From Gemmatimonadota bacterium (GTDB taxonomy: Bacteria; 4572-55; J002): a stretch of DNA of 22,896 bases. The translations under genes were made by a program, and so were the position numbers. This document shows positions 3,301-22,016 of the stretch, one piece after another; the first letter of the stretch is position 1, and each line of letters opens with the position of its first letter. The stretch lies in assembly GCA_003697105.1 (NCBI GenBank), contig RFFQ01000076.1:1-22896 (forward strand). Reading direction: 5' to 3'. Below the pieces are notes generated by a model. It did not search any database. It worked only from the letters and a program-made list of their open reading frames with translations, and was not told the DNA's origin.

Positions 3301-3658
3301 TATTGATGATGTGGTGATTTACGGGCGTGATTTTGAAGTCAGTGCCGACCTTTCCGGTTACCAACCGGAAATCCCCGCCAAGGTGGTATTGGCTCAAAAC
3401 GCGCCCAATCCGTTTAATCCGTTCACGACGATCCAGTACCAGCTACCAGACCGTCAGGCCGTCCGTTTGAATATTTACGATGTGCAAGGACGGCTCATCA
3501 CCACATTAGTTGACCAGACACAACCCGCCGGAACGTACCAGCTTGTTTGGAATGGCACCGATGCCCAAGGTCAGGCGGTTCGTTCGGGAGTCTATTTTTA
3601 CCGGTTGGATACCTCATCCGGTTTCCGCGCGAGGAAATCGATGGTTTTGCTCAAATAA
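338..3658 (+). CDS. Secreted C25 (gingipain-like) peptidase-family protein with type IX-type C-terminal domain
   Basis: A 1106-residue exported protein. The order is a signal peptide (1-20, cut after ALA), a propeptide-like beta region (about 40-220), a C25 peptidase-type region (about 230-570, ending with the family-typical HFSLMGDPTVSLW), and an Ig-like domain (about 573-655). Two carboxypeptidase-regulatory-like domains follow (about 660-740 and 745-820), then a jelly-roll-like domain (about 825-1000) and a FlgD-like sorting domain with NPFNP at 1024-1028. The nucleophile region is ITCGTC...TGDFC (Cys459, Cys462, Cys470). The Gly-His-Gly normally preceding it is replaced by YRGII (431-435), so classical gingipain catalysis is doubtful. 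The start is set by TGGAGGT six bases before the ATG. Likely role: a cell-surface or secreted protein, proteolytic or a degenerate relative. The family call is firm; activity is uncertain. Confidence 0.85.
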   Translation: MRSRHFLAFFLLIIPSLALADWLPIYSETPAPPVTLVPHSDLDSTRIEVDMSGVEIGEFNFFGEIYTTLTIPQTARLAQTGAPDVPMISFWVVLPPRAEYTVTVSPGDYQSLDEVNILPYSADPDFRFEDFTIYNTNAFFPDNILRVGAPVVFRDVRYLPVQLIPIQANPVTEEARIYENITLHVQTSGTNGLNPKTLASIPNRLYDAYYQRRFINYNEIRDDLFPDLIDPDPVTRLLIITPDDLAPALTDLVTWKNRKGIRTEVATLSETGTMGIQIKGYIQGLYDNIETRPDYLLLIGDHNVLNGWYTPAGDGQAYLSDNPYAYLEGQDDRMDMFVGRLPALPSVLSVRNMVNRVLLYEQVPVIDESDWQKSATLICYQESSMPTKNYIADELWADIGQFDQIDRFYESFQGNEVIALLNTEGRNFLNYRGIIDDYDLYPELINPQGKFPFLSWITCGTCDYATGDFCVQWLRDGSANDPEGAIGVIGGSQLTFPPEYARRRDALDKGVYEGLFLAERHTMGEMILWGKDNVLLEYPLPNDFYTRDTYDHFSLMGDPTVSLWTDVPQVLTVEHETGIPFGVYDVPVTVTNSEGEPVPGARVTISGLEFDDEAHFTAFTDESGTAIVQTNLREVGYYHLVVTAPNAIPYQFDELDAVPGMAIEGTVIHAESGDPLAATVYVTEGFSTTADPETGFYRLFIAEPGTYRVHAELWGYTPAVSEEFTIAEDETLTVDLTLESFPTGTLRGYVTDMNDFPIEGATVHILQEVELPDLITDENGYYEVDLPGSYAYLITIEAENRLPRVTLIELPIGETVDLNVQLAVYQDFEAGDGGFYETPNRDWEYGEPTAEFGPEAAHSGQQVWGTVLDGPYNRSRQSLLYTPNYYFPDDDQIEFHLLFYQWYLTNAGWDGGQMQISTDAGETWELIYPEGGYPDETVVGLSAQAGYTGTSDGWEEARFNLADYVEQWVTLRFRFGATNSQQRFPGWYIDDVVIYGRDFEVSADLSGYQPEIPAKVVLAQNAPNPFNPFTTIQYQLPDRQAVRLNIYDVQGRLITTLVDQTQPAGTYQLVWNGTDAQGQAVRSGVYFYRLDTSSGFRARKSMVLLK

Positions 3659-6783: not shown

Positions 6784-6853
6784 CGTCACTGTCTTTGTCT
6801 AATTTTATTATTTTTCGTTGTTTCCTATTTTTATCGATTCAAAGGAGGTTTCA

Positions 6854-8113
6854 ATGAAACGCCATGTGGTCGTGTTTTCCGGTTTAGTTTTTGTTATGGC
6901 GGTTTTTTGGGCGTGTGGCGGCTCTGCTTTTCTGACCGGAGCTAAAGTCGCTTTGCAGGAAAATCCACCAAATTATGAACGGGCGCTGAAGAATCTGGAA
7001 AAGGCGGAACAGCAGACCCCTGATGATTATGAAGTGCATAAACTGTTGGCAGAGGTCTATTTCCGGCGTCCGGCAGTGGGAGATGCCGGTAAAACCGCGG
7101 ATTATGAAAAGGCAGAACAAGCGTTTGCTCGGGCAGCAGAACTTGCACCGCCGGAAAAGAAAACGGATATTGCCAAAGCTCGTTTTGCCGTTGCCCAGCG
7201 GTTATTGGCGGCACAAAATTTTGAAGCCGCTTTGCGCGTCATTGAAAATGTTGATGTCACGTGGGAAGCCGATCCGGGTGAGTATTATAATGTCGGCTTG
7301 TTGTATCTGAGTTTAGCCCAAGAACAAGATGATGACGCCGTTAAGCAAAGTTATATTGATAAATCTTGTGGGGCATTCCAAAAGGGTGTCGATCAGGTTG
7401 AGCCTAAGGTACAAGCATTTATGAAGAACGCCCAGCGCGATCCGGATGCAGAAAAAGAGCTAAAGGATATGGCAGCTCAACTGTGGAGCGGGTTGGGTCA
7501 ATGTAAAATTGCGAAAGGTGAACTCGATAATGCTATCGCTGCTTATGAAAAAGCCATTGCCTATTCCCCAGATAATGAGATGTATGGGAAGACCATGAAG
7601 AGTTTACAAGCCAATAAAGGTGATGAGCTTATTGAAGCCGGTAAGTGCGATGAAGCTATTGCGTTTTATGATGGTCTCCTTGCCGAAGACCCGCAAAATG
7701 TGGATATTCTTTATTATAAGGGGAAAGCGCATTTGTGTGCCGATGACTTTCCGAGTGCCAAAGCGGCGTTTGATCAGGCGGTGGCGTTGGCTCCGGATGA
7801 TTTAATGCTTTTGGGCGACCTCTCTAATATTTATATTCAGGAAAAGAAGTATGAAGCCGCCCGCGATGTGACACTCAAATTAAAAGAGCAGAAGCCCGAT
7901 GAACCGGCAATTATCTTCAATTTGGGGCTTATTTGCAGTTATGCAAAAGATTGGCAATGCGTTGTAGATAACATGAGCCAATATTTAAGCATGATTGATA
8001 AGGATGATTGCGATGCGCATGATTTTATGGCGGCGGCTTACCGCCAATTAGGTCAGGATGATGAAGCCGTAACTGCCGCCCAAAAAGCGGCAGATTGCCG
8101 TGAAGCACAATAG
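6854..8113 (+). CDS. Cysteine-rich TPR-repeat lipoprotein
   Basis: A 419-residue probable lipoprotein. The start is the ATG at 6854, preceded by AAAGGAGG (6841-6848); an upstream in-frame codon at 6818 lies inside the leader and has no ribosome site. The N-terminus is a hydrophobic segment followed by WAC with Cys21 as the likely lipidation site; Phe at -3 and Trp at -2 are unusual for a lipobox. The rest is helical, with TPR-type units such as ALKNLEKAEQQTPDDYEVHK, ELDNAIAAYEKAIAYSPDN and AKAAFDQAVALAPDDLMLLG. Eight further cysteines are spread over the protein, which is high for an exported TPR protein. It is probably a scaffold in the cell envelope; partners are unknown. It has its own promoter and terminator. 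Confidence 0.85.
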   Translation: MKRHVVVFSGLVFVMAVFWACGGSAFLTGAKVALQENPPNYERALKNLEKAEQQTPDDYEVHKLLAEVYFRRPAVGDAGKTADYEKAEQAFARAAELAPPEKKTDIAKARFAVAQRLLAAQNFEAALRVIENVDVTWEADPGEYYNVGLLYLSLAQEQDDDAVKQSYIDKSCGAFQKGVDQVEPKVQAFMKNAQRDPDAEKELKDMAAQLWSGLGQCKIAKGELDNAIAAYEKAIAYSPDNEMYGKTMKSLQANKGDELIEAGKCDEAIAFYDGLLAEDPQNVDILYYKGKAHLCADDFPSAKAAFDQAVALAPDDLMLLGDLSNIYIQEKKYEAARDVTLKLKEQKPDEPAIIFNLGLICSYAKDWQCVVDNMSQYLSMIDKDDCDAHDFMAAAYRQLGQDDEAVTAAQKAADCREAQ

Positions 8114-8249: not shown

Positions 8250-8278
8250 TTGACAAGCATTCACCTTTATTGTACAAT
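8250..8278 (+). promoter_or_regulatory. Sigma-70 promoter of the TonB-dependent receptor operon
   Basis: TTGACA (8250-8255), a 17-bp spacer, then TACAAT (8273-8278), with TG directly before the -10 box. The leader to the ATG at 8395 would be about 110 nt; I recognise no riboswitch in it. Confidence 0.85.
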
Positions 8279-8394: not shown

Positions 8395-11300
8395 ATGAGA
8401 ACCAAATCGTTGCTATTCGTTTTGGTTGTGAGTGTAGCACTCATTTTCGTATCAACGCCAATCGTTTTTGCCCAAACGGGGAAGATTACCGGGAGGGTGA
8501 TTGATAAAGATACCGGTGAGCCGCTCTGGGGTGCCAATGTGACCGTTGTAGGTACCGGAAAAGGAGCAATGGTTAACGAGGATGGGTTATATACCATCTT
8601 TATTCGCCCGGGCACGTATGATGTTCAAGTCAGTTTCATCGGTTATTCACCTCAAACCAAAACCGGTGTGCTGGTTAAACTGGACTTGACGACAGAACTC
8701 AATTTTGAAATGAGTCAAGGCGCGATTGACTTGGATATTGTGATCGACGTGAGTGGGCAACGGGATATGATCCAAAAAGATATTACCAGTAGCGAATCTC
8801 GTATTGGTGCCGAAGAGATTACCAATATGCCGGTGGCAAATTTCCAAGATATTTTAGCGTTGACCGCCGGTGCAAAGGAAGATGCTAGTGGAGACCTTCA
8901 CTTTCGGGGTGGGCGTACCGGCGAAGTCCTCTACAATGTAGATGGAATGTCTGTGCGGGATGTCCAAAGTAACGATGCGGGTTTGCAACCCAGTAACAAT
9001 GCCATTGCGGAAGTCGTGGTGATTTCCGGAGGGTTCCCCGCAGAGTTTGGAAATGCCCAATCTGCCGTGGTGAACGTCGTCACCAAAGAAGGGAGTGTGA
9101 AGCGGTATACCGGAGGTTTGGAGTATCGCACGGATGATTTTGGTAATCCAAATGCGGACTATTCCTGGAATTCCGATGTGGTGAATTTTAACTTTGGGGG
9201 TCCGGAGCCACTAACCCAGCAAATTTTGCCCTCCTTGGGTTTTGATCTACCCGGCGATGTGACGTTTTTCCTCTCCGGCGAGGGGCAGTTTACCAATGGT
9301 TATGTGGAGTATGATAATTACCCCTACGCTTCCCAAAATATTTTCGGTATTGATTTTACGGATCGCCGCCAAAACTTCTTCAATTTAAGTTCTAAGCTTG
9401 CTTACCAGATTACCCCCAAACACAAACTCACATACAGTTATAACTCGCAACGTCAAAAATATTATGGGTTTGACCGTCCTTGGAATTGGATTTCCTACCT
9501 TCAAGAAAACGGTGACGGCGTTGATGGAAATGCCGGGGGTCTTTCTGGCGGTGTGGGTGGTACGACGATATTCGGACCCACATTGGGCTATCCCCGCGAT
9601 AATGATGGCGAGGATGATGATGGTAATCCCAATACCCCGGCGCGGGCGGACGGAATTGATAATGACGGTGATGGCCTGATTGATGAAGGTATTGATGAAG
9701 AATTACCCAATGGTATCGATGATGACGGGGATTGGGTGCCGTTTAGTGATTGGAATGGGAACGGAGTCCTCGATTATGTGGACTACAACGGGAACGGTAT
9801 TTTTGATAATGGCATCGACCGGCAATTAGAACCGTTAAATTCGGATTGGAATGGAAACGGTGTCCCCGATTATGATTGGGATGGTTATGGTACCGCCTAT
9901 GAAAATCGGGTTTTGTATGATGCCAATAGCGATCAGGATATGTTCTGGGATCCGGAACCCGGTATTGATGAGGACTTGAATAGCTATTATATGTTCGACC
10001 CTTATACCGGTGAACAGTACAATCCCACGATCCATAACAATTATGTGCATACAAACAGCAATCTTCATACGTTGGAATGGAGCCATACCCTAAGTTCCAA
10101 TACGTTCTATAAAATTCGGGCTTCCCGGTTCAACAAAGTGACGTGGAGCGATACCCAAGGTAAAGAACCGTGGCAGTATGTGGCGCGTCAGCCGTTTAGT
10201 AGTAGTGAAGGTTATCGTTTTGCTGGTGATGACTTGTTCTGGACACGAGATGGACAAACTACCTATACCTTCAAAGCGGATATCACGAGCCAAGTTGTGC
10301 CCAAATATCATCAAATGAAAAGCGGAATTGAAATCGAATATTTTGATATTTGGGATAATCAAATTCAATATCCGTATGATTATCACTTTGGGCAAGAAGA
10401 CCCTGGTGCCCCGTACCAGTATTGGGGAAATTACCGGTATTTCTGGCATGTTTATTCGTGGGCAGGTGCAGCGTATGTCCAGGATAAAATGGAATTTGAG
10501 GGCATGATCGTCAATGTGGGTATCCGTTATGACTTTTGGGATGTGGGTAAACAAGCTGCTCGTGAAACGACCGCCAGAGATGTTGATGGGGATGGTCGCC
10601 AAGATTCCGCATATGATTTTGATGGCGATGGTATTGACGACCCTATTTACGCTTTGGATCGAAATCTTGATGGTGAAGTCAGTTTTAGTGAACGTATTCA
10701 CGACCAAATTAGTCCCCGAATTGGTATCTCCCATCCCATTACGGATAAAGATAAATTGTTCTTCTCTTACGGTCACTTTTCGCAACGTCCGAAAATGCGG
10801 CAAGTTTACACCAAACCGAGCAATACGGGAGATATTCCATTGCGCGGTAATCCGCAACTTGGCCCGGAAAAGACCGTGCTGTATGAGCTAGGTGTTGAAC
10901 ATGCTTTTAATGACCGCGTGTTAATGAAAATCACGGGCTTTTACAAAGATATTACCGATTTGGTGAATACCCAGCAAGTTATTGTGCCGCCATTTACGTA
11001 TAGTGAATATGTCAATTCGGCATATGGTGGCGTACGGGGGTTTGAGCTCTCATTCACCAAGCGTTACAGTAATTACACGGCGGGATTCTTCAATTATACC
11101 TATTCCATTGCCAGTGGGAATGCCTCCAGTGACCGTCAGGGGTATGACTTCCAGAATCGCGGTGTTGAATTGCCTTTGAGCGAGAGCGCCTTGGATTGGG
11201 ATGAACGGCATACGATTACCACAAATTTTGATTTTCGGGTACCGAAAGATGAGCCGCCGACGGTTTTTGGGGTGACACTCCCGGATGATTGGGGAATGAA

Positions 11301-11712
11301 CCTTGTGTGGCGGTACGGTAGTGGTTTACCTTATACGCCTTCCGCGGAATTGTCCGGCGAGAATGTGGAAACCAAACGATTGAACGCGTATCGTCTTCCT
11401 TGGACGATGAGTACAGATTTGCGATTCAATAAGAATTTTACATATGCCGGTTTAGATTATGAATTTTTCCTCTGGGTCGAAAACTTATTTGACCGGAAGA
11501 ATGTCACCGGTGTCTATTCGTCAAGTGGAAAACCGGATTATAATGGTTCGCCGATTTTCAATGCGGATGGCGAGATCGTTGGTTATGAAGAAGAACCGGG
11601 CGGTTTCTATACGTTCAAAGACCCCGCCTACGGTGAAACCTCGTATTGGAGAAACCCAACCAATTATGATCCCGGCCGGCGGGTGCAAGCGGGTTTCCGT
11701 GTTCAATTTTAA
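8395..11712 (+). CDS. TonB-dependent receptor with Asp-rich calcium-binding-type insertions
   Basis: A 1105-residue outer-membrane receptor. A signal peptide (1-26, cut before QTGKITGRV) is followed by a carboxypeptidase-regulatory-like domain (about 27-110, with GRVIDKDTGEPLWGANVTVV) and a plug domain (about 120-235, with DLHFRGGRTGEVLYNVDGMS and NVVTKEG). The beta-barrel runs to the C-terminal Phe (QAGFRVQF). Two Asp-rich stretches, about 400-530 and 727-765, carry D-x-D-x-D-G repeats such as GIDNDGDGLIDEG and DVDGDGRQD, like thrombospondin type 3 or EF-hand loops; they probably sit in extracellular loops. I see no clear TonB box. Ribosome site AAAGGGGA precedes the ATG by six bases. The energy genes follow directly, so this receptor is probably their client. 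The ligand is unknown. Confidence 0.9.
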   Translation: MRTKSLLFVLVVSVALIFVSTPIVFAQTGKITGRVIDKDTGEPLWGANVTVVGTGKGAMVNEDGLYTIFIRPGTYDVQVSFIGYSPQTKTGVLVKLDLTTELNFEMSQGAIDLDIVIDVSGQRDMIQKDITSSESRIGAEEITNMPVANFQDILALTAGAKEDASGDLHFRGGRTGEVLYNVDGMSVRDVQSNDAGLQPSNNAIAEVVVISGGFPAEFGNAQSAVVNVVTKEGSVKRYTGGLEYRTDDFGNPNADYSWNSDVVNFNFGGPEPLTQQILPSLGFDLPGDVTFFLSGEGQFTNGYVEYDNYPYASQNIFGIDFTDRRQNFFNLSSKLAYQITPKHKLTYSYNSQRQKYYGFDRPWNWISYLQENGDGVDGNAGGLSGGVGGTTIFGPTLGYPRDNDGEDDDGNPNTPARADGIDNDGDGLIDEGIDEELPNGIDDDGDWVPFSDWNGNGVLDYVDYNGNGIFDNGIDRQLEPLNSDWNGNGVPDYDWDGYGTAYENRVLYDANSDQDMFWDPEPGIDEDLNSYYMFDPYTGEQYNPTIHNNYVHTNSNLHTLEWSHTLSSNTFYKIRASRFNKVTWSDTQGKEPWQYVARQPFSSSEGYRFAGDDLFWTRDGQTTYTFKADITSQVVPKYHQMKSGIEIEYFDIWDNQIQYPYDYHFGQEDPGAPYQYWGNYRYFWHVYSWAGAAYVQDKMEFEGMIVNVGIRYDFWDVGKQAARETTARDVDGDGRQDSAYDFDGDGIDDPIYALDRNLDGEVSFSERIHDQISPRIGISHPITDKDKLFFSYGHFSQRPKMRQVYTKPSNTGDIPLRGNPQLGPEKTVLYELGVEHAFNDRVLMKITGFYKDITDLVNTQQVIVPPFTYSEYVNSAYGGVRGFELSFTKRYSNYTAGFFNYTYSIASGNASSDRQGYDFQNRGVELPLSESALDWDERHTITTNFDFRVPKDEPPTVFGVTLPDDWGMNLVWRYGSGLPYTPSAELSGENVETKRLNAYRLPWTMSTDLRFNKNFTYAGLDYEFFLWVENLFDRKNVTGVYSSSGKPDYNGSPIFNADGEIVGYEEEPGGFYTFKDPAYGETSYWRNPTNYDPGRRVQAGFRVQF

Positions 11713-11734
11713 GTATGCAAATTAAAAACGGCGA

Positions 11735-11763
11735 ACGCACGTAACCTCGCTAACGTGCGTTTT
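11735..11763 (+). terminator. Hairpin between the receptor gene and exbB, possible weak terminator or attenuator
   Basis: ACGCACGT (11735-11742) pairs perfectly with ACGTGCGT (11753-11760), followed by only four T in a row. The stem is good but the T tract is short, so partial termination is more likely than a full stop. It could also act as a 3' stabiliser that lowers expression of the downstream genes relative to the receptor. Confidence 0.55.
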
Positions 11764-11807
11764 GCCGGTTTAACTATTTAGGACCTTTTTATGAGGAGGG
11801 TTGTACG

Positions 11808-12602
11808 TTGGAACTCTTAGATCTTTTCATTTCTCCGGCTTTTGCAGATACAATGCAGGCAATCGCAGATACGGCGGACACGATGATGCAAGCGGCGCCA
11901 CCCCCACCGCCACCCCCACCTATGCCGGTGGAAGAACCAAATTTCCTTGCCAATTTCATCGCAGGTTTTGTCACCAAGTTCAAACAAGGCGGCCCGATGA
12001 TGTGGGTCTTGCTGGTTTTTTCCATTTTTGGTTTGGCCGTGATTGTGGCAAAATTCATCTCATTGGCTTTGGCAAAGAAAAATGCAAAGAAGTTTATGGC
12101 TGAGGTGGTCGATAAACTTCACAATGACGATGTTGATGGTGCGCTTGAGTATTGCCAACGTACCCGAGGTCCTGTGGCGTCGATTGTTGCGGCAGGTCTG
12201 GATAAATATAAACGGGGTGCCAGTTCCGAACTCGTTGAAAAAGCAATAGAACGCGCGGGTGTGATCGAGTTATCAATTTTGGAACGGGGTTTAGTTTGGA
12301 TTTCTACGGTCGCTAACGTGGCGCCGGTTGTCGGTTTCTTGGGAACGGTGACCGGGATGATCAACGCCTTTAATGCGATTGCCGCGGCAGGTGAAATTGA
12401 TCCCAGTGTCGTGGCAAGTGGTATCTCGGAAGCGCTTATTACGACGGCAAGTGGTCTGATCATCGCTTTCCCGACCCAAACCGTACATAACTATTTTGCG
12501 ACTCAGATTGATAAGTTCATTGTGGATATGGAAGATAGTGCGGCTAAATTAATGGATGCTCTGGAAGTTCTCAATGTGAAAAAGGAAAATGGCAACGCCT
12601 AA
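11808..12602 (+). CDS. exbB: MotA/TolQ/ExbB-family proton channel protein
   Basis: A 264-residue inner-membrane protein that, with ExbD and TonB, couples proton flow to outer-membrane transport. Transmembrane segments are near 61-89, 162-188 and 204-228. The second and third carry the family motif VAPVVGFLGTVTGMINAF and the segment ISEALITTASGLIIAFP. The start is a TTG at 11808, eight bases after GGAGG (11795-11799); the ATG at 11791 is in another frame. The N-terminus is unusual: about 60 residues precede the first standard helix, including AFADTMQAIADTADT and eight consecutive prolines (31-38). It is the first gene of a tight cluster with 18-38 bp gaps. The family call is safe; naming it exbB rather than tolQ rests on the adjacent TonB and receptor. 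Confidence 0.92.
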   Translation: MELLDLFISPAFADTMQAIADTADTMMQAAPPPPPPPPMPVEEPNFLANFIAGFVTKFKQGGPMMWVLLVFSIFGLAVIVAKFISLALAKKNAKKFMAEVVDKLHNDDVDGALEYCQRTRGPVASIVAAGLDKYKRGASSELVEKAIERAGVIELSILERGLVWISTVANVAPVVGFLGTVTGMINAFNAIAAAGEIDPSVVASGISEALITTASGLIIAFPTQTVHNYFATQIDKFIVDMEDSAAKLMDALEVLNVKKENGNA

Positions 12603-12640
12603 ACCCGACGTTTCGTCGATTATTATCAGGAGATTCTCTC

Positions 12641-13078
12641 ATGAATAAAATGAATCGCCGTTCTAAGGTTAGTGGGGAAATCCCAAGTTCTGCAATGGGA
12701 GATATTGCCTTCTTGTTGCTGGTTTTCTTTTTGGTGACTACGGCTTTCAGTACGGAAAAAGGGTTGCAATTGCAATTACCGGAACTTGCCCAAGACCAAC
12801 CGGAAACAAAAGTCAAAGTGAAATCAAAAGACATGTTGAAGGTGGAAGTTCAAGCCAACGGCGCTATTTTGGTTGGGTTTGGCACCAATCGCCAACCCCT
12901 GCCCTTGGATATGCTCTCGGCACGGGTGCGGGCAGAATTGGATGACAATCCAGAAAAGCTAATTGTTCAAGTTAAATTGGATGATGACGCCCGGTATGAC
13001 TTCATGATTCAAGTTCTGGACGAATTGAAAAAAGCGCGAGCACCACGTATTCACATTGTTAATCCATTGCGATCCTAA
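12641..13078 (+). CDS. exbD: ExbD/TolR-family biopolymer transport protein, first copy
   Basis: A 145-residue protein with one N-terminal membrane helix and a periplasmic domain. The helix begins IPSSAMGDIAFLLLVFFLVT; Asp21 matches the essential membrane aspartate of ExbD/TolR. The periplasmic part (about 45-145) shows the usual strand pattern, with a late LIVQVKLDDDARYDFMIQVL segment. AGGAG precedes the ATG; a second ATG three codons on is possible. It lies 38 bp after exbB and 18 bp before the second copy. Confidence 0.93.
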   Translation: MNKMNRRSKVSGEIPSSAMGDIAFLLLVFFLVTTAFSTEKGLQLQLPELAQDQPETKVKVKSKDMLKVEVQANGAILVGFGTNRQPLPLDMLSARVRAELDDNPEKLIVQVKLDDDARYDFMIQVLDELKKARAPRIHIVNPLRS

Positions 13079-13096
13079 GTCAAGAAAGGGAGTATT

Positions 13097-13504
13097 ATGG
13101 CATTTGGTCGTCGTGCAAAAGTTGATAGTTCAATTCCCTCGTCCGCAATGGGCGATATTGCCTTCCTGCTGTTGATCTTTTTTATGGTAAGCACGGTTTT
13201 TGATACCGAGAAAGGGTTGCCTATTCAAGAACCTCGTGCAGAAGAGGCAAAAAAGGTTCCGAAAAGCGGCGTGATGCATATTTGGATGGATGCTCGCGGT
13301 ACCGTTGTTATCGATGATATGCGGTATAATATGGATGTCGTGCATCAGGCAATGCAACTGAAAATGGCGGCAGACCCAAGTTTGATTGCGTCTCTGAAAG
13401 TTGATAAAGATGCGCCGTACCGCAATGTCTCCGATTTGATGATTGAGTTGCGAAAAGCAAGAGCGTTGCGAGTAAACTTCTCAACACGCCCGGATAAGCG
13501 TTAA
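13097..13504 (+). CDS. exbD: ExbD/TolR-family biopolymer transport protein, second copy
   Basis: A 135-residue paralogue of the preceding protein. The region around the membrane aspartate (Asp20) is almost the same in both (IPSSAMGDIAFLLL), but the periplasmic domains differ strongly: this one has short EEAKKVPKSG linkers and lacks the Gln-rich stretch. Tandem ExbD genes beside one ExbB occur in other FCB bacteria and probably form a mixed ExbD pair inside one ExbB pore. Ribosome site AAAGGGAG lies just before the ATG. Confidence 0.93.
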   Translation: MAFGRRAKVDSSIPSSAMGDIAFLLLIFFMVSTVFDTEKGLPIQEPRAEEAKKVPKSGVMHIWMDARGTVVIDDMRYNMDVVHQAMQLKMAADPSLIASLKVDKDAPYRNVSDLMIELRKARALRVNFSTRPDKR

Positions 13505-13525
13505 TTTCTTTGGAGGAGACTTTTC

Positions 13526-14179
13526 ATGGTTACGAAAACTATACCTGATGTGATCGATGTTTATCCTTTAGTGATGAAATTGGGAGTGTTGATCGCATTG
13601 CTGGTTCATTTGGTTATTTTTGTGACGTTTACTAACCACGTGCCGGTATTGTATGAGCCGCAAAAGGAATTTATTCCGGAAGCCGTCAATATTGATGTGG
13701 CAATCACGGCGGAAGTGCCCCCTCCTCCGAAAATTGAACGTCCCGCGGTACCGGTTGAGGTGAGTAATGATGAGGCGATAGATGAAGATGTGACCATTAT
13801 GAGTACTGAATTTGACTTTTTCGCACCTCCTCCGCCTCCACCCCCACCCGGTGGAAATGAAGAGCCTCCTCCCGTAGAAGACGAAATTTTTGTAGCATTT
13901 GATAGTCCACCCCAACCGGTACGGCTGGTCAAGCCAGAGTATCCTGAAATCGCCCGGAAATCCGGTTTGGAAGGGATGGTGTTGCTGGAGGTTGTGGTGG
14001 AAAAAGATGGTACCGTCAGTGATGCGAAAGTGCTTCGTTCGCTTCAACCCGGTCCTGGGGGATGTGATGAAGCGGCAATTGCGGCCGCCTTGAAATCCGT
14101 TTTTACACCTGCTAAACAACGGGATAAACCGGTGCGTGTAAAAATTACTTTGCCATTCCGTTTTACATTGAATGAATAA
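13526..14179 (+). CDS. tonB: TonB-family energy transducer
   Basis: A 217-residue protein that links the inner-membrane motor to the outer-membrane receptor. The single membrane helix (about 15-37) contains His28, matching the conserved TonB membrane histidine. It is followed by a short periplasmic stretch with PPPPK and a run of eight prolines, then a TonB C-terminal domain (about 130-217) with PEYPEIARKSGLEGMVLLEV and the end VKITLPFRFTLNE. The proline linker is short compared with E. coli TonB, about 90 residues. GGAGGAG lies just before the ATG, 21 bp after the second ExbD gene. Confidence 0.93.
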   Translation: MVTKTIPDVIDVYPLVMKLGVLIALLVHLVIFVTFTNHVPVLYEPQKEFIPEAVNIDVAITAEVPPPPKIERPAVPVEVSNDEAIDEDVTIMSTEFDFFAPPPPPPPPGGNEEPPPVEDEIFVAFDSPPQPVRLVKPEYPEIARKSGLEGMVLLEVVVEKDGTVSDAKVLRSLQPGPGGCDEAAIAAALKSVFTPAKQRDKPVRVKITLPFRFTLNE

Positions 14180-14298
14180 TTAAATGATAATAATTGGATG
14201 ATCGTAACGGTACGAAAACGTTGTTCGTTCGTGTTGCGTTGGTTTGTGATAGTGAATGTAACTTTGGTTTTGAAAGACCTTGATGAGGAGGTGCGTAC
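14180..14298. other. 119-bp gap between tonB and the Asp-rich secreted protein gene
   Basis: This is the widest gap inside the cluster. I see no hairpin with a T tract and no convincing -35/-10 pair. It ends in GAGGAGG, the ribosome site for the ATG at 14299. A separate promoter here is possible but not visible. Confidence 0.5.
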
Positions 14299-17127
14299 AT
14301 GCGCTTAAAGCTAGTGAGTTTTGCTCTATTGCTAGTCTTTGCTGTGGCTACTCTGGCCGGAGCTAATACCGCCCCTAAGCAAGAGGATGTGAATCTGAGC
14401 AGTCGATTCCCGCTAATCCCTCTGGCGAGTGACCCGGTATTAGACTACCAATATCATGATGTGGGTAAAGTATGGTTGACGGTGAGCAACTGGGGGTTTA
14501 TTGGGAATCCAGACCATTCTAACATGCCCACATATCCCTCTGCCATGTATCCCGGAGGCTCGAATATTGACTTTTTGTTCCAAGGTGCGGTTTGGTTCGG
14601 CGCCATTGTGGGAAGTTCGACCGACCCGGATACGATTACAACTGTCGGCGTTGATGGTTGGTTAAATGATAATGAAAATGATATGTTCCCGGGGACCCAA
14701 CCCTGGGATACCCTTTTTGTTCGGGGATTGAATGAGTCCGGTATGCGTGGCATTGATGATGATGGTGATTGGAGTGCGTATCCTGAAAATGACATTAATA
14801 AAAATGGTGCCGCCGACGCCGATTTCGACGGTATTCCGGTTGACGTCTTTTTAAATCGAGGCTTTTCAGAAGAGAAAGCCTGCCAAAATGCCGATGATGA
14901 CGGGGACGGCCAATGCGATGAGGAAACGCTGGATGGCCGGGATAACGACGGAGATGGCTTGGTCGATGAAGATTGTGCCGGGGGGGATGCCAACGGCGAC
15001 GGAAACCCCGGTTACGACCCTGAAGGACATTTTTATACCGGTGATATTAAAGGACATGCTGCAGAAACCTATGATGAAGAACTGTTTTCTTTTGGTAATC
15101 CATGGGAAAATCGGTCGTATTCGTATTTAGCCGCATTTGATGAAGACCCGAAAGGCGATCCGTACCGCCGCCGGGTCGGCGCAAGTTCTGACCCCAACTA
15201 CAATTGGACGGAACCTTACGACGATGACCAAGATGGCTGGATCGATGAAGACGGGGAAGCCATCGGAGAACAAGATTTTGTGGGTTCGTATAGTGATATT
15301 CATGATGTGTCTGTCTCAGATTTGTACCCCTTGGGGATCACGATCACGCAAAAAAGCTATGCTTGGAGCTATTCCTACAGCGATGACTATGTGTTGGTGG
15401 ATTACGTCATTGAAAATACAGGCGGCTTACCCCCGGGTGGCGCTGTTGATGCGGATGGATTTTACCGGCTGAAGGATTGCTGGCTTGGAATGTACATCGA
15501 TGGCGATGTGGGTCCAAATTGGAATACCGCTTATAGTGGAATTGCTCAAGATGACTTAACCGGTTTTATTATGGAAGACCCTAATTTTAATGGAACGGAT
15601 GATAATGGGAATCCGATCTATCAAAATCTATTTTTAGGCTACATTTTTGATGGACCCAATAACTATGAGAATCATGGCGATAACGCTATTTGGGATGGGT
15701 TTTTAGGGGTTCGAGTGGTGGATGTGTATAAAACCACCTTGGATTTTACGGACCCCGATAATCCGAAATATGTACGGCAAGTGGATCCCAATACCGGTAA
15801 GCCCTTTTCTATCAATGATCTGGATTTCTCTTTCAATTGGTGGTTGTCGGATTCTAATAATGCGGTTTTAGATGAAACACCGATGGGAGATGCCCCGAAA
15901 TATGCTCGGATGTCGAATCTTCAAGATGATTATCATGCCGTTGCAAACACTGCGGCACGTCGAACAGGCGAGCTTGATTACAAAGACCCCACTACTTTTG
16001 GAACCGCGAGTCAAAATGATTTAACCAACTGGCCCCAGCCGACTCGGGAAGCCGCTATTGCCCGAGGTATCACTGACCTTCCGCCCGCGGGCCCACGGCG
16101 GGTAGATGACCCCGGTACGGAAGATACTCGTTTCTTGGTCTCTTATGGCGGGGGTCCGTTCACAGAGCTCAATCCCCGAGAACGGTTACATATTACGGTT
16201 GGGGTGATTATGGGCTTTACCTTCAAAAATCTGTTGCAAAATGCTTATTGGGCAAAAACGGTTTATGATAACTACTACAAAGGTCCAACACCGCCACCGT
16301 CTCCAAACCTCACCGTGGAACCGTACGGGGATGGCCGGGTAAAACTGACTTGGGATAACAGCCCAGAATCAACCGTTGACCCGATTAGTGGTCAACGTGA
16401 CTTTGAGGGCTATCGAGTCTGGCGCAGCCGAAGCCGTATTCTGGATAGCTTCCAGATGATTGCTGAATTTGATATTATTGATGGGGACTCCGGTGTCGAA
16501 GGTGACCTCCGGTTTGATGTCGGTTTACCGGGTGAAAATCCAGACCATTTTGCATGTCAAGCATTTGCAACCGATAGCGGGTATGTCTTTATCGACCGGA
16601 ATGTGACGGAAAACTTCACCTATTTTTATGCGGTGACTTCTTTTGACCGGGGCGAACCGGCAAATGGTGTGGCGTCCTTGGAAAGCAGTATCAACAACAA
16701 TATGACACTGATCGTACCGTCAACTCCTGCTGGTAAAAAATTGGTTGCTGTTAATGATGATTGCGAAGAGACCAAACCGGTTGCCAATGGGTATTCGTTG
16801 GATGATATTCTTGTGATTCCAAATCCGTATCGTGGCGATAGGGATTATAGTTCTTATGATTATTCCGGTTGGGAAGATGCACGTTCGGAATATAGCCGTG
16901 TGATCGCCTTCACGAATCTTCCGGATGGTGATGTTACGATTCGAATTTATACGGTTGCCGGTGATTTGGTTCAAACCTTGACCGAAACCTTATCACCGAC
17001 CGGTACGAGTACGATTTACTGGGATATGCTCACGCGAAGTCAACAACGCATCGTGAGTGGGGTATATATCTACTCGGTGGAATCGAAATACGGCACCAAA
17101 GTTGGTAAATTTGCGGTGATTCGCTAA
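14299..17127 (+). CDS. Large secreted protein with Asp-rich repeats, Fn3-like domain and type IX-type C-terminal domain
   Basis: A 942-residue exported protein with a signal peptide (about 1-22). Residues about 150-237 and 305-320 hold D-x-D-x-D-G calcium-binding-type loops (GIDDDGDW, DADFDGIP, DDDGDGQCDEE, DNDGDGLVDED). The middle (about 330-650) is a conserved-looking domain I cannot name. An Fn3-like domain (about 664-795) contains GRVKLTWDNSPES and FEGYRVWRSRS. The end (about 832-942) is a FlgD-like sorting domain with VIPNPYRGD, VTIRIYTVAGDLV and SGVYIYSVES. GGAGG precedes the ATG. It follows TonB and precedes the PorV-like gene by 19 bp. I infer a surface partner of the receptor at 8395, based on shared repeat type and gene order; its biochemical role is unknown. 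Confidence 0.82.
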   Translation: MRLKLVSFALLLVFAVATLAGANTAPKQEDVNLSSRFPLIPLASDPVLDYQYHDVGKVWLTVSNWGFIGNPDHSNMPTYPSAMYPGGSNIDFLFQGAVWFGAIVGSSTDPDTITTVGVDGWLNDNENDMFPGTQPWDTLFVRGLNESGMRGIDDDGDWSAYPENDINKNGAADADFDGIPVDVFLNRGFSEEKACQNADDDGDGQCDEETLDGRDNDGDGLVDEDCAGGDANGDGNPGYDPEGHFYTGDIKGHAAETYDEELFSFGNPWENRSYSYLAAFDEDPKGDPYRRRVGASSDPNYNWTEPYDDDQDGWIDEDGEAIGEQDFVGSYSDIHDVSVSDLYPLGITITQKSYAWSYSYSDDYVLVDYVIENTGGLPPGGAVDADGFYRLKDCWLGMYIDGDVGPNWNTAYSGIAQDDLTGFIMEDPNFNGTDDNGNPIYQNLFLGYIFDGPNNYENHGDNAIWDGFLGVRVVDVYKTTLDFTDPDNPKYVRQVDPNTGKPFSINDLDFSFNWWLSDSNNAVLDETPMGDAPKYARMSNLQDDYHAVANTAARRTGELDYKDPTTFGTASQNDLTNWPQPTREAAIARGITDLPPAGPRRVDDPGTEDTRFLVSYGGGPFTELNPRERLHITVGVIMGFTFKNLLQNAYWAKTVYDNYYKGPTPPPSPNLTVEPYGDGRVKLTWDNSPESTVDPISGQRDFEGYRVWRSRSRILDSFQMIAEFDIIDGDSGVEGDLRFDVGLPGENPDHFACQAFATDSGYVFIDRNVTENFTYFYAVTSFDRGEPANGVASLESSINNNMTLIVPSTPAGKKLVAVNDDCEETKPVANGYSLDDILVIPNPYRGDRDYSSYDYSGWEDARSEYSRVIAFTNLPDGDVTIRIYTVAGDLVQTLTETLSPTGTSTIYWDMLTRSQQRIVSGVYIYSVESKYGTKVGKFAVIR

Positions 17128-17146
17128 GAAAGGAAGGTGATGACAC

Positions 17147-18094
17147 ATGAAAAAAGGAATAATGCTACTCAGCCTGCTGTTGACCCTCATGTTTCTCTTC
17201 CCGACATCCGCTCTCGCGTTGGATAAAGTCGCTCAGTCCGGCGTTCAGTTTTTGAAGATTGGTGTCGGTGCCCGTGCCGTGGGGATGGGAGAAGCATTTG
17301 TGGCTGTCGCGGATGACCCAACGGCACTGTATTGGAATCCGGCGGGTTTAGTCAACGTTGAAGGAAAAGCGTTTACGGTAAGTTATAACAAGTGGATTGC
17401 AGAAACCACGCATTCCTTTGTGGGGTATGCTCAATACTTTCCCGGCTTAGGGACTTTTGGTATCAGCTTTGTGAATTTCTCTGTTGGGGAAATTGATGAA
17501 ACCGAGCCCGGTATCGGTCTGACCGGTCGAACCTATGGGGCGAGTGATTTTATGGCGGGTCTTTCTTACTCGCGCCGGTTAACAGACAAATTCTCCGTCG
17601 GTGGGACCCTCAAAATGATCAATTCGTATATCGCGGATGAATCGGCGGCTGGTTGGGCGGCGGATGTCGGTACGTTGTATGATACCGGTTTCCGTACTAT
17701 CCGGCTGGGAATGGTGATTCAGAACTTTGGTGGGGATATTAAATATATCGGGGAAGATACGCCGTTACCCATTACGTTCAAAGCTGGCGTCGCGATGGAT
17801 TTGCTGAATCGGGATGCCCATGCGGTTACCGGTTCCATTGAAATGCGTCACCCCAATGACAATGCTGAAACCGTGCAAATGGGGGGTGAATATTGGTTCA
17901 ATAATATGGTTGCAACCCGCTTAGGTTACCGATATAATTACGATGCGGGAGGTCTGACCGCCGGTTTTGGCGTGAGATTAGACATCGGCGGTTCCCAATT
18001 TGAATTGGATTATTCCTATACCGATATGGGTGAGTATCTCGGACCCAATTTTGGAGATAATCCGCAGCGGATTGGAGCTACTCTGAAATTCTAA
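17147..18094 (+). CDS. PorV/PorQ-family outer-membrane beta-barrel protein
   Basis: A 315-residue outer-membrane protein related to the FadL-type barrels of the PorV/PorQ (UPF0164) family. A signal peptide (1-24, SALA) is followed by the hallmark FLKIGVGARAVGMGEAFVAV and DDPTALYWNPAGL. Alternating strands continue to the C-terminal Phe (IGATLKF). PorV in type IX secretion receives exported proteins and passes them to the attachment machinery, so a role in exporting or holding the protein encoded just upstream is plausible. This is inference; the family also includes members of unknown role. The ribosome site is AGGAAGG upstream of the ATG. Confidence 0.88.
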   Translation: MKKGIMLLSLLLTLMFLFPTSALALDKVAQSGVQFLKIGVGARAVGMGEAFVAVADDPTALYWNPAGLVNVEGKAFTVSYNKWIAETTHSFVGYAQYFPGLGTFGISFVNFSVGEIDETEPGIGLTGRTYGASDFMAGLSYSRRLTDKFSVGGTLKMINSYIADESAAGWAADVGTLYDTGFRTIRLGMVIQNFGGDIKYIGEDTPLPITFKAGVAMDLLNRDAHAVTGSIEMRHPNDNAETVQMGGEYWFNNMVATRLGYRYNYDAGGLTAGFGVRLDIGGSQFELDYSYTDMGEYLGPNFGDNPQRIGATLKF

Positions 18095-18157: not shown

Positions 18158-18177
18158 TCCCCATTTGGAGACATTTG

Positions 18178-19875
18178 ATGATTTTAGGGTTTTCCTCGTT
18201 TTGGCATGATTCTGCCGCCGCACTGATTGATGATTCGGGACAGTTGGTTGCCGCTATCGAAGAAGAACGCTTGAGCCGCATCAAACATGATGGCGCCTTT
18301 CCGGTAAAGGCTATCCAGTTTTGCCTTGATTTTGCCGGTATTCAAGAATCTGATCTGGATGCGGTGAGTTATTACCGCTTACCTCGCTTAAATGTTCACC
18401 ACCAACTCGTACATTTTCTACGATGCTTTCCGCGTTCTCTTCAGTCCCTCCGGGATCAATCGGAATGGATCTCTGAATGGCGGAAAATGCTACGAGTTCG
18501 GTCCAACCTTAAACGCCATTTTCCCGTTTTGGCTCACCAACCATTTATACCGGTTGACCATCCGACGGCTCACGCCGCTAGCGCCTTTTTTCCATCTCCC
18601 TTTACGGAGGCGGTGGTTCTGGTTCATGATGCCATGGGAGAGTGGGCTGCAACGACCGTTTTTGAGGGACGTCATGGAAACCTAACCCGCTTGCTTCAAA
18701 TTAATTTTCCACATTCCTTAGGTGTGTTTTACCAAACACTTACCATGTTTTTGGGATTTAACATCCGAAATGATGAATATAAAGTTATGGGATTATCCGC
18801 ATATGGAAAACCGCGTTATTTAGATACGTTTCAGGAGATGATCCGGCTAACCGGTGAACCGGGATACCGTTTAAACCTTCGGTTTTTTCAATTTCAGTAC
18901 GGTACAAAACCTTATTGGTCACCGCTATTAGAAGAAAAATTAGGACCCCCCCGTCTTCCGGGAGAAGAATTGACTGAACGTCATGCCGATATTGCCTGTA
19001 GCCTCCAAACCCGTTTGCAGGAAGTGGTGTTACATTTGGTGACCGCTATTTTTTCCCGGACAAAAACCCGGAATCTCTGTATTGCCGGTGGAGTAGGATT
19101 GAATAGTGTGCTAAATGGGGTCTTGCTTGAAAAATCGCCGGTCAGCCATCTCTACGTTCCGTCTGTGGCGGGTGATGCGGGGGCTTCTTGGGGTTCTGCT
19201 TTGATGGCACACCGCCGGTTGCAAAAATGCACATCGTTCCGCCCAGTTTATCGCGCCGATTGGGGACCCTCGTTTTCAGATGAGGCGATTGAGCGTATTC
19301 TTCAAGAACGCCACATCTCCTATCAGCGTGTGGAACATGTGCCTCGATTTTGTGCGTCCAAATTAGCAGAGGGATGGACCCTTGGATGGTTTCAGGGTCG
19401 GATGGAATGGGGACCTCGTGCGCTGGGTCAACGCAGTATCTTAGCCGACCCGCGTCGTGCCGAAATGAAAGACATCATCAATAAAAAGGTAAAAGGACGT
19501 GAACCGTTCCGCCCATTTGCCCCGTCCGTGTTGGAATCCCATTTTGCCGACTATTTTATCGCCCCCAATGCGGATCCCTTCCCCTTTATGACGACAGTCT
19601 TCCGGGTTAAACCCGAAAAACAATCGGAAATTCCGGCGGTGGTTCATGTAGATGGTACGGCACGGGTGCAAACTGTATCTGCGAATCTCCAACCTCTCTA
19701 TGCCGGTTTGATTCATGAATTTTACCAACTCACAGGCGTTCCGCTTATTTTAAATACCTCGTTTAATGATAACGGCGTCCCCATCGTATGTACCCCTCAG
19801 GAGGCACTGGACGTGTTCCAACGCACCGGTTTAGATGGGCTAATGATTGGTGCGTTTTGGATTGCAAAACCCTGA
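18178..19875 (+). CDS. NodU/TobZ-family carbamoyltransferase
   Basis: A 565-residue cytosolic enzyme that, by family, uses carbamoyl phosphate and ATP to O-carbamoylate a substrate hydroxyl through a carbamoyl-adenylate. The N-terminal Kae1-like half shows FSSFWHDSAAALIDD, EEERLSRIKHDGAFP, the metal-site pair His128/His132 (DHPTAHAAS), Asp151 (VHDAMGEW) and NDEYKVMGLSAYGKP. Further on come IAGGVGLNSVLNG and VAGDAGASWGSAL. The C-terminal half has GRMEWGPRALGQRSILADPR, EPFRPFAPSVL and GVPLILNTSFNDNG. The start is the ATG at 18178 after TTGGAG; a TTG one codon earlier is less likely. No glycosyltransferase, polyketide or aminoglycoside genes are nearby, so the substrate cannot be read from context. 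I see no promoter of its own. Confidence 0.95.
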   Translation: MILGFSSFWHDSAAALIDDSGQLVAAIEEERLSRIKHDGAFPVKAIQFCLDFAGIQESDLDAVSYYRLPRLNVHHQLVHFLRCFPRSLQSLRDQSEWISEWRKMLRVRSNLKRHFPVLAHQPFIPVDHPTAHAASAFFPSPFTEAVVLVHDAMGEWAATTVFEGRHGNLTRLLQINFPHSLGVFYQTLTMFLGFNIRNDEYKVMGLSAYGKPRYLDTFQEMIRLTGEPGYRLNLRFFQFQYGTKPYWSPLLEEKLGPPRLPGEELTERHADIACSLQTRLQEVVLHLVTAIFSRTKTRNLCIAGGVGLNSVLNGVLLEKSPVSHLYVPSVAGDAGASWGSALMAHRRLQKCTSFRPVYRADWGPSFSDEAIERILQERHISYQRVEHVPRFCASKLAEGWTLGWFQGRMEWGPRALGQRSILADPRRAEMKDIINKKVKGREPFRPFAPSVLESHFADYFIAPNADPFPFMTTVFRVKPEKQSEIPAVVHVDGTARVQTVSANLQPLYAGLIHEFYQLTGVPLILNTSFNDNGVPIVCTPQEALDVFQRTGLDGLMIGAFWIAKP

Positions 19876-20018: not shown

Positions 20019-22016
20019 ATGAATAAACTGGTATGTTTAGTTTTGGTTGTGGGTCTTTCTTTGTTGGCGATCCCGCTGTATGCGGCATCAAATGTCAGCG
20101 TGTCGGTCGATGAGGAAGGCAATATAACATCTGTTCAAACGATTGGGCATCTGGTTCCACTCCGAAGTTCTAGTGGAGAGCTACGCTTGCCCCCTTCCGA
20201 TCCCGAAACCCCGGCGGCTCCGAATATTCGGTATGGAAGCAGTTCCCATAATCCACTGACGACATCCTTTGAACGTCAAGTGGTTCGTGTACCCGGTACT
20301 GAAGATATGATGTTTATTTATGAAAGTGATGATAATGATGCTGACAACACCGCAACGGAGTTAAAATACGGGTTGTATATCAATGATTTTTTGTTCTGGG
20401 ATGTGCAAAGTATTACGGCCTCTATGGATCCAGAAGTCAATGCCGTACGCCGTAAAGCCCTAACCGCAACCTCTGATGGAGCGCTTCATGCTGTTTTTGG
20501 GTATTCGACCATTGCAGGTGACCGGGGGGGATTGCGTATGGGTTACGCCACTTATGACCCAATTTCTCAATCTTGGGCATACCAACGAGACCTGAATCCG
20601 GGTCCCGTACGGGGATTTTCATATCCCGTTATTGTAACGAATAGCCATGATGAACTCTATGTCGCATTGCAGCGATATACCTCGAATGGGGTAAACCATG
20701 ACGGTCATTACTATTTTGTGCATACGGTGGGTGGTGATTGGTCATCCTTGGATCAAGTGGTCGATGAACCTGTTGGTCAATATGGTTGGGGAGTATGTAA
20801 TATCGCGGCTGACCCCGTTACCGATGATTTGTATATCTTTTGGCCCGGTGAAGCGGATAGTGAAGGTGACATTGGCTATGAATGGCCCGATATTCGGGTG
20901 AAGAAGTGGAGCTACGACACCCAAACGTGGGACCCTGAAGACCCTGAAATTGGCTATACCGCGGTTGCAGGAGGTCCAGAGTATATGTACTATCCGTATG
21001 AATCTCCAGAAGATGTCCGCCCGGACGCCCATTTTGCGTGGGCACATTGGCCCATGGTTACCGTGGATAGTGAAGGTTACATCCATGTAATCACCCTCGG
21101 AAACCAAGTTGACCAACCCACCGGTATTTCCGGTAGTTTGTCGTTTTATTACAGCATTGGGGTGGCAGGTGTTCCGTATTATTCCCGCAGTGTGAATCCA
21201 CGTGACCCCTCTGAATTTACGCCTCCGCAACGTATCTTCCAAACCCGTTTTGAGGATGAAGACGGTAACGTCTTTGATAATGATGTGGTTTCGGGAGGAC
21301 AAATTGCCATTGATGAAGATGACAATCTTTATTTTATCTTTGGTCAATGGGAAGGTTGTTTCTTCAGTGCCCCCGATGCGGATTCTCTGTTGATTTATAC
21401 CGGTCCGCAGCACATTCGGATGACATACTTTGATCGAGACCACGAAAGTGGCTGGTGGTCCCAATTAACAGAAGATGTGTTCACCGCACCATACGACACC
21501 ACCAATGGTATTGAAGCCGGTCTGCAACATCCAACATGTGCCGCTCATGTGGAAGGTCCCTCAGATTTTCCGGATGAACCGGATAAATGGGGACTCCCAG
21601 TGTTGGCGAATGTCCATTATGACCTTGGCGGCGCTACGCCACCATATGACATTTTCTACATCAAAGCGCCGTACCAACCAGAGTGGCTATATGATATTGA
21701 TTCGGTTGAACCGGAGCAAACCAGTGTGGCTGTTCCTGCTGTGGCAAAATTACACCAAAACTACCCCAATCCGTTCAACCCTCGCACAACCATTACTTAT
21801 GATGTGATTCAGGCGGGCCATATCCGGTTGGCGATTTACAACATGAAAGGTGAATTGGTCAAGGAATTGGTGAATCACAACGTGGCAGAAGGTTCTTATA
21901 GTGTGACATGGGATGGCATGGATACCACCAATCAACCCGTGCCCAGCGGTATGTACACCTACCGTTTGGAAACCGATGATCACATTCTGACCAGAACCAT
22001 GGTGTTGATGAAGTAA
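20019..22016 (+). CDS. Secreted propeller-like protein with type IX-type sorting domain
   Basis: A 665-residue exported protein with a signal peptide (about 1-22, LYAAS). The body (about 50-560) repeats a strand-turn pattern seen in BNR/sialidase-like propellers: DGALHAVFG near 151, HDELYVALQ near 210, TDDLYIFWPG near 269, EGYIHVITLG near 350 and DDNLYFIFGQW near 434. No sialidase Asp-box or catalytic set is clear, so the enzyme or binding role is unknown. The C-terminus (about 576-665) is a FlgD-like sorting domain with NYPNPFNPRTTITY and a MVLMK end. AAGGAGG sits just before the ATG. The gene stands alone between its own promoter and terminator. Confidence 0.82.
   Translation: MNKLVCLVLVVGLSLLAIPLYAASNVSVSVDEEGNITSVQTIGHLVPLRSSSGELRLPPSDPETPAAPNIRYGSSSHNPLTTSFERQVVRVPGTEDMMFIYESDDNDADNTATELKYGLYINDFLFWDVQSITASMDPEVNAVRRKALTATSDGALHAVFGYSTIAGDRGGLRMGYATYDPISQSWAYQRDLNPGPVRGFSYPVIVTNSHDELYVALQRYTSNGVNHDGHYYFVHTVGGDWSSLDQVVDEPVGQYGWGVCNIAADPVTDDLYIFWPGEADSEGDIGYEWPDIRVKKWSYDTQTWDPEDPEIGYTAVAGGPEYMYYPYESPEDVRPDAHFAWAHWPMVTVDSEGYIHVITLGNQVDQPTGISGSLSFYYSIGVAGVPYYSRSVNPRDPSEFTPPQRIFQTRFEDEDGNVFDNDVVSGGQIAIDEDDNLYFIFGQWEGCFFSAPDADSLLIYTGPQHIRMTYFDRDHESGWWSQLTEDVFTAPYDTTNGIEAGLQHPTCAAHVEGPSDFPDEPDKWGLPVLANVHYDLGGATPPYDIFYIKAPYQPEWLYDIDSVEPEQTSVAVPAVAKLHQNYPNPFNPRTTITYDVIQAGHIRLAIYNMKGELVKELVNHNVAEGSYSVTWDGMDTTNQPVPSGMYTYRLETDDHILTRTMVLMK

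Follow-up and report, generated by a model that had tools for sequence, protein, structure and literature searches.

A TonB receptor module with a candidate type IX-exported surface partner and its own PorV-family barrel

This work concerns a block of seven genes on contig RFFQ01000076.1 of a Gemmatimonadota bacterium (assembly GCA_003697105.1), analysed as a window of 22,896 nucleotides (nt), which encodes a TonB-dependent receptor (REC), ExbB, two ExbD proteins, TonB, a secreted protein of 942 residues (P942) and an outer-membrane barrel of the PorV/PorQ family (PORV). We report that receptor, partner and barrel constitute a real and widespread module, a variant of the pairing of a TonB receptor with a surface partner, for which the genomic case is strong, with direct support from the gene content, the linkage in 36 genomes, the co-varying gene trees, the absence of SusD and the presence of SprA and PorU. 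Additionally, we propose, with a probability of roughly 55%, that the partner is exported by the type IX secretion system (T9SS), held by a paralogue of PorV and put to the service of the adjacent TonB receptor.

P942 relatives turned up in 15 of the 60 related genomes examined; three named records have partner homologues, all of them Zixiibacteriota, and viral contigs added no further relatives. A profile of the partner N-domain, built without the C-terminal domain (CTD), matched 77 of the 386 genomes sampled. By profile score alone, 60 further loci were chosen, 32 of which had 6.5 kb or more of flanking sequence on each side; within 7 kb of the partner gene a same-strand receptor was present at 28 of these 32 and an opposite-strand receptor at none, and both a receptor and a PorV-family gene lay near the partner at 26. 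The neighbourhood check suggested by the original prediction thus found the relatives of P942 mostly with a receptor and not without one. Complete triples of receptor, partner and PorV-family gene were present in 36 genomes of 30 families. The full order REC-ExbB-ExbD-ExbD-TonB-partner-PorV recurs in L090 (genome G313) and L108 (G105), and six of the seven genes stand in the same order in L053 (G031) before the contig ends. As the L108 block is bounded on both sides by opposite-strand genes, for guanylate kinase and an ABC transporter, the module is taken to comprise just these seven genes. The same Ton genes follow about 1.6 kb after the triple in L124, L126, L131 and L132, and the ExbB-ExbD-ExbD-TonB cassette belongs to the module at a minority of loci only, on which point the original prediction needs correcting. 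A second arrangement, with the partner, one or two genes, and then the receptor and the PorV-family gene, was seen in many genomes (L109-L116, L120, L121).

The same association was apparent in genomes assembled as a single contig. The complete genome G345 (4,978,541 bases) carries 30 Plug-domain receptors, 24 clear PorV-family genes and 12 N-domain partners, and, by our own cut for SusC-like receptors (at least 840 residues and a Plug score below 60 bits), a PorV-family gene lies downstream within 12 kb of 16 of its 23 SusC-like receptors and of none of its 7 conventional ones, the figure for a random place being 3%. One CTD-bearing partner stood between receptor and PorV-family gene in all 15 loci fetched. 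With the same cut, G059 gave 5 of 11 SusC-like receptors versus 1 of 12 others (random place, 1.3%). The genome of the window itself has three loci with receptor, partner and PorV-family gene, namely the window, one on contig C76 (L041) and one on C183 (L040), where a partner-like gene precedes the receptor. Separately, a tandem of three further partner-class CTD proteins is located in G345 just downstream of L155 (G345:C1:990170-997388), from which one receptor may have several alternative partners.

The export machinery needed for such a partner is encoded in these genomes, and the usual partner of SusC is missing from nearly all of them. Each of the 15 genomes checked for SprA has it, 14 of them with a score over the cut-off, and PorU was present in 7 of 7; in the window genome SprA is on contig C74 and PorU, at 650 bits, on C113. 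PorV-family copies number 6 to 39 per genome. Of 14 genomes, 13 gave no match to the SusD models and one, G055, has a single such gene; the window genome has no place for PF07980 or PF14322. P942 begins with a Sec-type signal lacking a lipobox, and by pattern a lipobox was found in 0 of 55 partners. It consists of the signal peptide, an undescribed N-region, an insert rich in aspartate (Asp) at residues 148-316 and a predicted T9SS CTD at residues 830-942; Pfam gave no SusD match and no family over residues 1-870, only the C-terminal T9SS-like immunoglobulin (Ig) domain being matched, and no Pfam family was found for the partner N-regions in any of 14 members (P942 and 13 relatives). The pair foreseen by the original prediction, a receptor with a T9SS-type, PorV-handled partner in place of SusD, accordingly stands on the linkage at 28 and 26 of 32 loci, the co-varying trees and the missing SusD, and has lost its proposed sequence link through GIDDDGDW and the generality of the Ton cassette. 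A second, longer PorU-like protein (a frame of 1661-1688 residues, below the PorU cut-off) was also observed beside a PorV-family gene of its own, at G000:C46:6460-11752 and G345:C1:4422599-4427973, and is possibly another dedicated pair of CTD protein and barrel.

Based on these findings, we propose that the locus may encode a module for TonB-driven uptake across the outer membrane, made up of three core proteins and their own motor. First, P942 would be made with its Sec signal and would then cross the outer membrane through the type IX translocon (SprA). Its CTD would be kept, and not cleaved, by the PorV-family barrel encoded next door, which could hold P942 at the cell surface, next to REC or on top of it. 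There, P942 could capture or gate the substrate, the job done by SusD for SusC or by TbpB for TbpA, and ExbB, ExbD and TonB would energise the import. We infer the secretion by T9SS, the retention of the CTD, the complex of receptor and partner, the direction of import and the existence of an imported substrate from the genomic observations.

The CTDs of the partners bear on whether the barrel retains the partner. By their sequences, the partner CTDs form a distinct class linked to the adjacent PorV paralogues, with the pattern V-x-PNPY...F-x-NLP...I-x-I[YF]T-x-x-G[DE]LV...W[DN]L...SG-x-Y...GKF-[AV]I[IV][KR], versus QNYPNPFNP...WDG...SG[IV]YFY...KM-x-L-x-K in ordinary cargo of the same loci. 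On a tree the two kinds are separated by 5 label changes, versus a mean of 25 in shuffles. The partner-class scores in G345 are bimodal, with 21 places at 85-130 bits and the remainder at 55 bits or less, and a PorV-family gene follows within 400 nt after 14 of the 21, versus 1 of 49 ordinary CTDs (Fisher p 8e-9). The P942 CTD was modelled with seven strands at a predicted local distance difference test score (pLDDT) of 76 and a predicted template modelling score of 0.72, which agrees with the seven-strand Ig-like fold of T9SS type A cargo, and its best fold match in the PDB is PorZ (5m11; expectation value, E, 2e-3; template modelling score 0.61). P942 lies under the TIGR04183 cut-off of 23 (18.0 bits for the whole protein, 21.9 for the CTD alone); the neighbouring C25 and 665-residue proteins reach 31-33 bits. 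The partner-class profile (A5) matched only PorU (23.8 bits) and PorZ (22.6 bits) in the PDB, and a control profile of ordinary CTDs matched FlgD first, then PorU (22.8 bits), RemZ-type substrate CTDs and PorZ (13.8 bits); as PorU is matched by both, it is the shift towards PorZ alone that sets the partners apart. Neither PorU nor PorZ loses its CTD, and the two remain attached to PorV and PorQ; a review has suggested that cognate PorV-like barrels possibly shield CTDs from cleavage (PMC10202324).

The strongest competing account, which we consider clearly less probable and still a serious one, is that PORV is an export shuttle only, P942 being an ordinary T9SS cargo (an adhesin, binding protein or enzyme) that later loses its CTD to PorU, and the receptor importing what P942 and other secreted proteins supply, without a complex. 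This would be in keeping with the collection of type A cargo by PorV in Bacteroidota (PMC5562754, PMC12618676), with the PorU sortase encoded in the genome and with the extra CTD proteins of some modules. It sits poorly, however, with one dedicated PorV paralogue per partner, when the type A cargo of Bacteroidota all share one PorV (PMC12618676), with a partner CTD class set apart from the ordinary cargo of the same genome, and with the co-variation of the receptor and partner trees.

That co-variation was measured from mirror trees, by comparing patristic distances in the trees for the receptor, the body and the CTD of the partner, and PorV. Within G345, the distances correlate over 15 modules with r 0.72-0.87 (permutation p 0.0005), and over 55 triples with r 0.61-0.80; the comparison within a single genome removes the species tree as the cause. 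The co-varying trees indicate co-inheritance of receptor, partner and PorV, not contact.

Several observations weigh against the proposal of a PorV-held partner serving the receptor. Co-varying trees would also result if the block had been duplicated as a unit and its proteins never touched, and the match to PorU is about equal for the profile of ordinary CTDs. Partner loci without a nearby receptor make up 4 of the 32 (L102, L104, L118, L125), and at the Zixiibacteriota loci L037-L039 no receptor lies within 10 kb; some clusters hold several partners or place the partner ahead of the receptor. As clues to the substrate, no conserved flanking genes are common to L090, L108 and the window, and no riboswitch was found in eight loci. 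The full-length model of P942, built with few relatives, has a pLDDT of 34, is unusable and lends no support to a lid-like fold. Block duplication and the 4 of 32 loci without a receptor would suit a co-inherited block with separate functions, in which receptor, surface-layer or adhesive protein and shuttle are co-regulated under one condition and do not share a substrate. We regard this as unlikely, since 36 genomes of 30 families preserve the linkage, which is specific to SusC-like receptors and missing from all 7 conventional receptors of G345. Most improbable is a receptor working in export, release or signalling, with TonB force displaying, releasing or repositioning the T9SS partner: REC sits among export-type genes and the partner could be its client, but it has the Plug and barrel of a typical import receptor, and we know of no precedent for a TonB receptor acting in the export or release of a T9SS partner. 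REC as a signalling receptor of the STN type was rejected, the STN domain being absent from the Pfam matches of the window proteins.

The original prediction had also linked receptor and partner through D-x-D-x-D-G repeats with a common GIDDDGDW core. The repeats and core are indeed present in both proteins, in the inserts at about residues 402-530 of REC and 148-316 of P942, but they are not a general link: among the 55 triples, 17 receptors and 4 partners are Asp-rich, and both are so in the window alone (1 of 55). An alignment of 16 partners shows the insert of P942 to be almost unique, and the DNA of the two inserts has weak similarity, 65-85% identity over short stretches. The repeats were therefore rejected as a receptor-partner link, with no duplication at the DNA level. 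From these counts and the weak similarity, the receptor inserts appear to recur within one subset of receptors and that of P942 to have been added independently, and the shared GIDDDGDW would be a coincidence specific to the window that does not define the pair. The P942 insert may bind calcium.

The seven genes and their families are as originally described, which the reading-frame coordinates and the Pfam and NCBIfam matches confirm (Table 1). They are colinear over 8395-18094 on the plus strand, with operon-like gaps of 95, 38, 18, 21, 119 and 19 nt, and all three components of the TonB-ExbB-ExbD energiser are encoded. REC has an N-terminal CarboxypepD_reg domain, followed by Plug and the TonB barrel, and gave no match to the SusC/RagA family model (NCBIfam, E up to 0.1). 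The true start of ExbB may be the ATG at 11853. PORV is over the cut-off of PorV_fam NF033709 (90 bits) and not over those of the named PorV, PorQ and PorV2 equivalogs (PorV, 105.9 versus 250 bits; PorQ, 118 versus 220). Near the module are a C25 (gingipain-type) peptidase and a 665-residue CTD protein, thus ordinary T9SS cargo is encoded beside it. The gene of a tetratricopeptide repeat (TPR) lipoprotein-like protein ends 281 nt before REC and is no fixed neighbour in the other copies examined; nor is the carbamoyltransferase gene directly after the module conserved beside them.

Table 1. Features of the window (coordinates are window positions)
Feature	Coordinates	Strand	Evidence or remarks
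C25 (gingipain-type) peptidase	338..3658		C25 propeptide, repeated carboxypeptidase-regulatory domains, ordinary type A CTD
TPR lipoprotein-like protein	6818..8113		VFWACGG
Promoter-like TTGACA-17-TACAAT	8250..8278	+	117 nt 5' of REC gene; 11/12 consensus match, consensus only
REC, TonB-dependent receptor, 1105 residues	8395..11712	+	PF13620, PF13715, PF07715, PF00593 above cut-off
ExbB (MotA/TolQ/ExbB family)	11808..12602	+	PF01618 112.9 bits
ExbD 1	12641..13078	+	PF02472 88 bits
ExbD 2	13097..13504	+	PF02472 78 bits
TonB, 217 residues	13526..14179	+	PF03544 70.5 bits; TIGR01352 56.6 bits
P942, secreted partner protein, 942 residues	14299..17127	+	full-length homologues in triples
Predicted T9SS-type CTD of P942, seven-strand beta-sandwich, PNPYR...GDLV...GKF[AV]I[IV] class	16780..17124	+	model; PDB matches
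PORV, PorV/PorQ-family outer-membrane barrel, 315 residues	17147..18094	+	NF033709 233.6 bits; PorV 6h3i E 3e-13
Carbamoyltransferase (NodU/CmcH type)	18175..19875		
665-residue CTD protein	20019..22016		

The proposal of a PorV-held partner for a TonB receptor offers an explanation for the dozen to dozens of PorV paralogues in some non-Bacteroidota genomes, where the type A cargo of Bacteroidota share one, and for the amplified SusC-like receptors that work without SusD outside Bacteroidota. If true, the type IX system builds nutrient importers, beyond secreting enzymes and adhesins, and the partner CTD class would be a simple genomic marker for such importers. An open-access literature search, with subscription journals and preprints outside its scope, found no TonB receptor with a T9SS/PorV partner, which leaves the absence of such a report unproven.

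Among known systems, the module resembles the SusC/SusD (RagA/RagB) importers of glycans and peptides in Bacteroidota in combining, on one transcript, a TonB receptor that has an N-terminal carboxypeptidase-like domain and a large surface partner, and in being present in many copies per genome, whereas its partner is unrelated to SusD, lacks a lipid anchor, and has a T9SS CTD and a PorV paralogue alongside, and its receptor falls outside the SusC family models, in genomes of which 13 of 14 have no SusD. The TbpA/TbpB transferrin receptors with Slam likewise combine a TonB receptor, a surface co-receptor and a dedicated outer-membrane exporter; there, however, the co-receptor TbpB is a lipoprotein, and the exporter, Slam, has no relation to PorV. 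In the T9SS attachment complex, PorU-PorV and PorZ-PorQ, a retained CTD fixes a surface protein non-covalently to a PorV/PorQ barrel, as may be the case here, and PorU and PorZ are the solved structures closest to the partner CTDs, but the partner is neither a sortase nor a lipopolysaccharide delivery protein, and it accompanies a TonB receptor. Finally, where type B CTD proteins are paired with PorP/SprF-like shuttles (SprB-SprF, PG1035-PorP-PorE), the gene of the CTD protein likewise has its own barrel gene immediately behind it, and this barrel secures and anchors the CTD protein (PMC12618676, PMC9143113). In Flavobacterium johnsoniae the type A cargo share one PorV, and the type B cargo genes are each followed by a PorP/SprF barrel gene of their own (PMC12618676). 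The partner CTD is instead Ig-like and of type A, and its barrel belongs to the PorV and not the PorP family; the module looks like a type B arrangement assembled from type A components, with a TonB receptor added.

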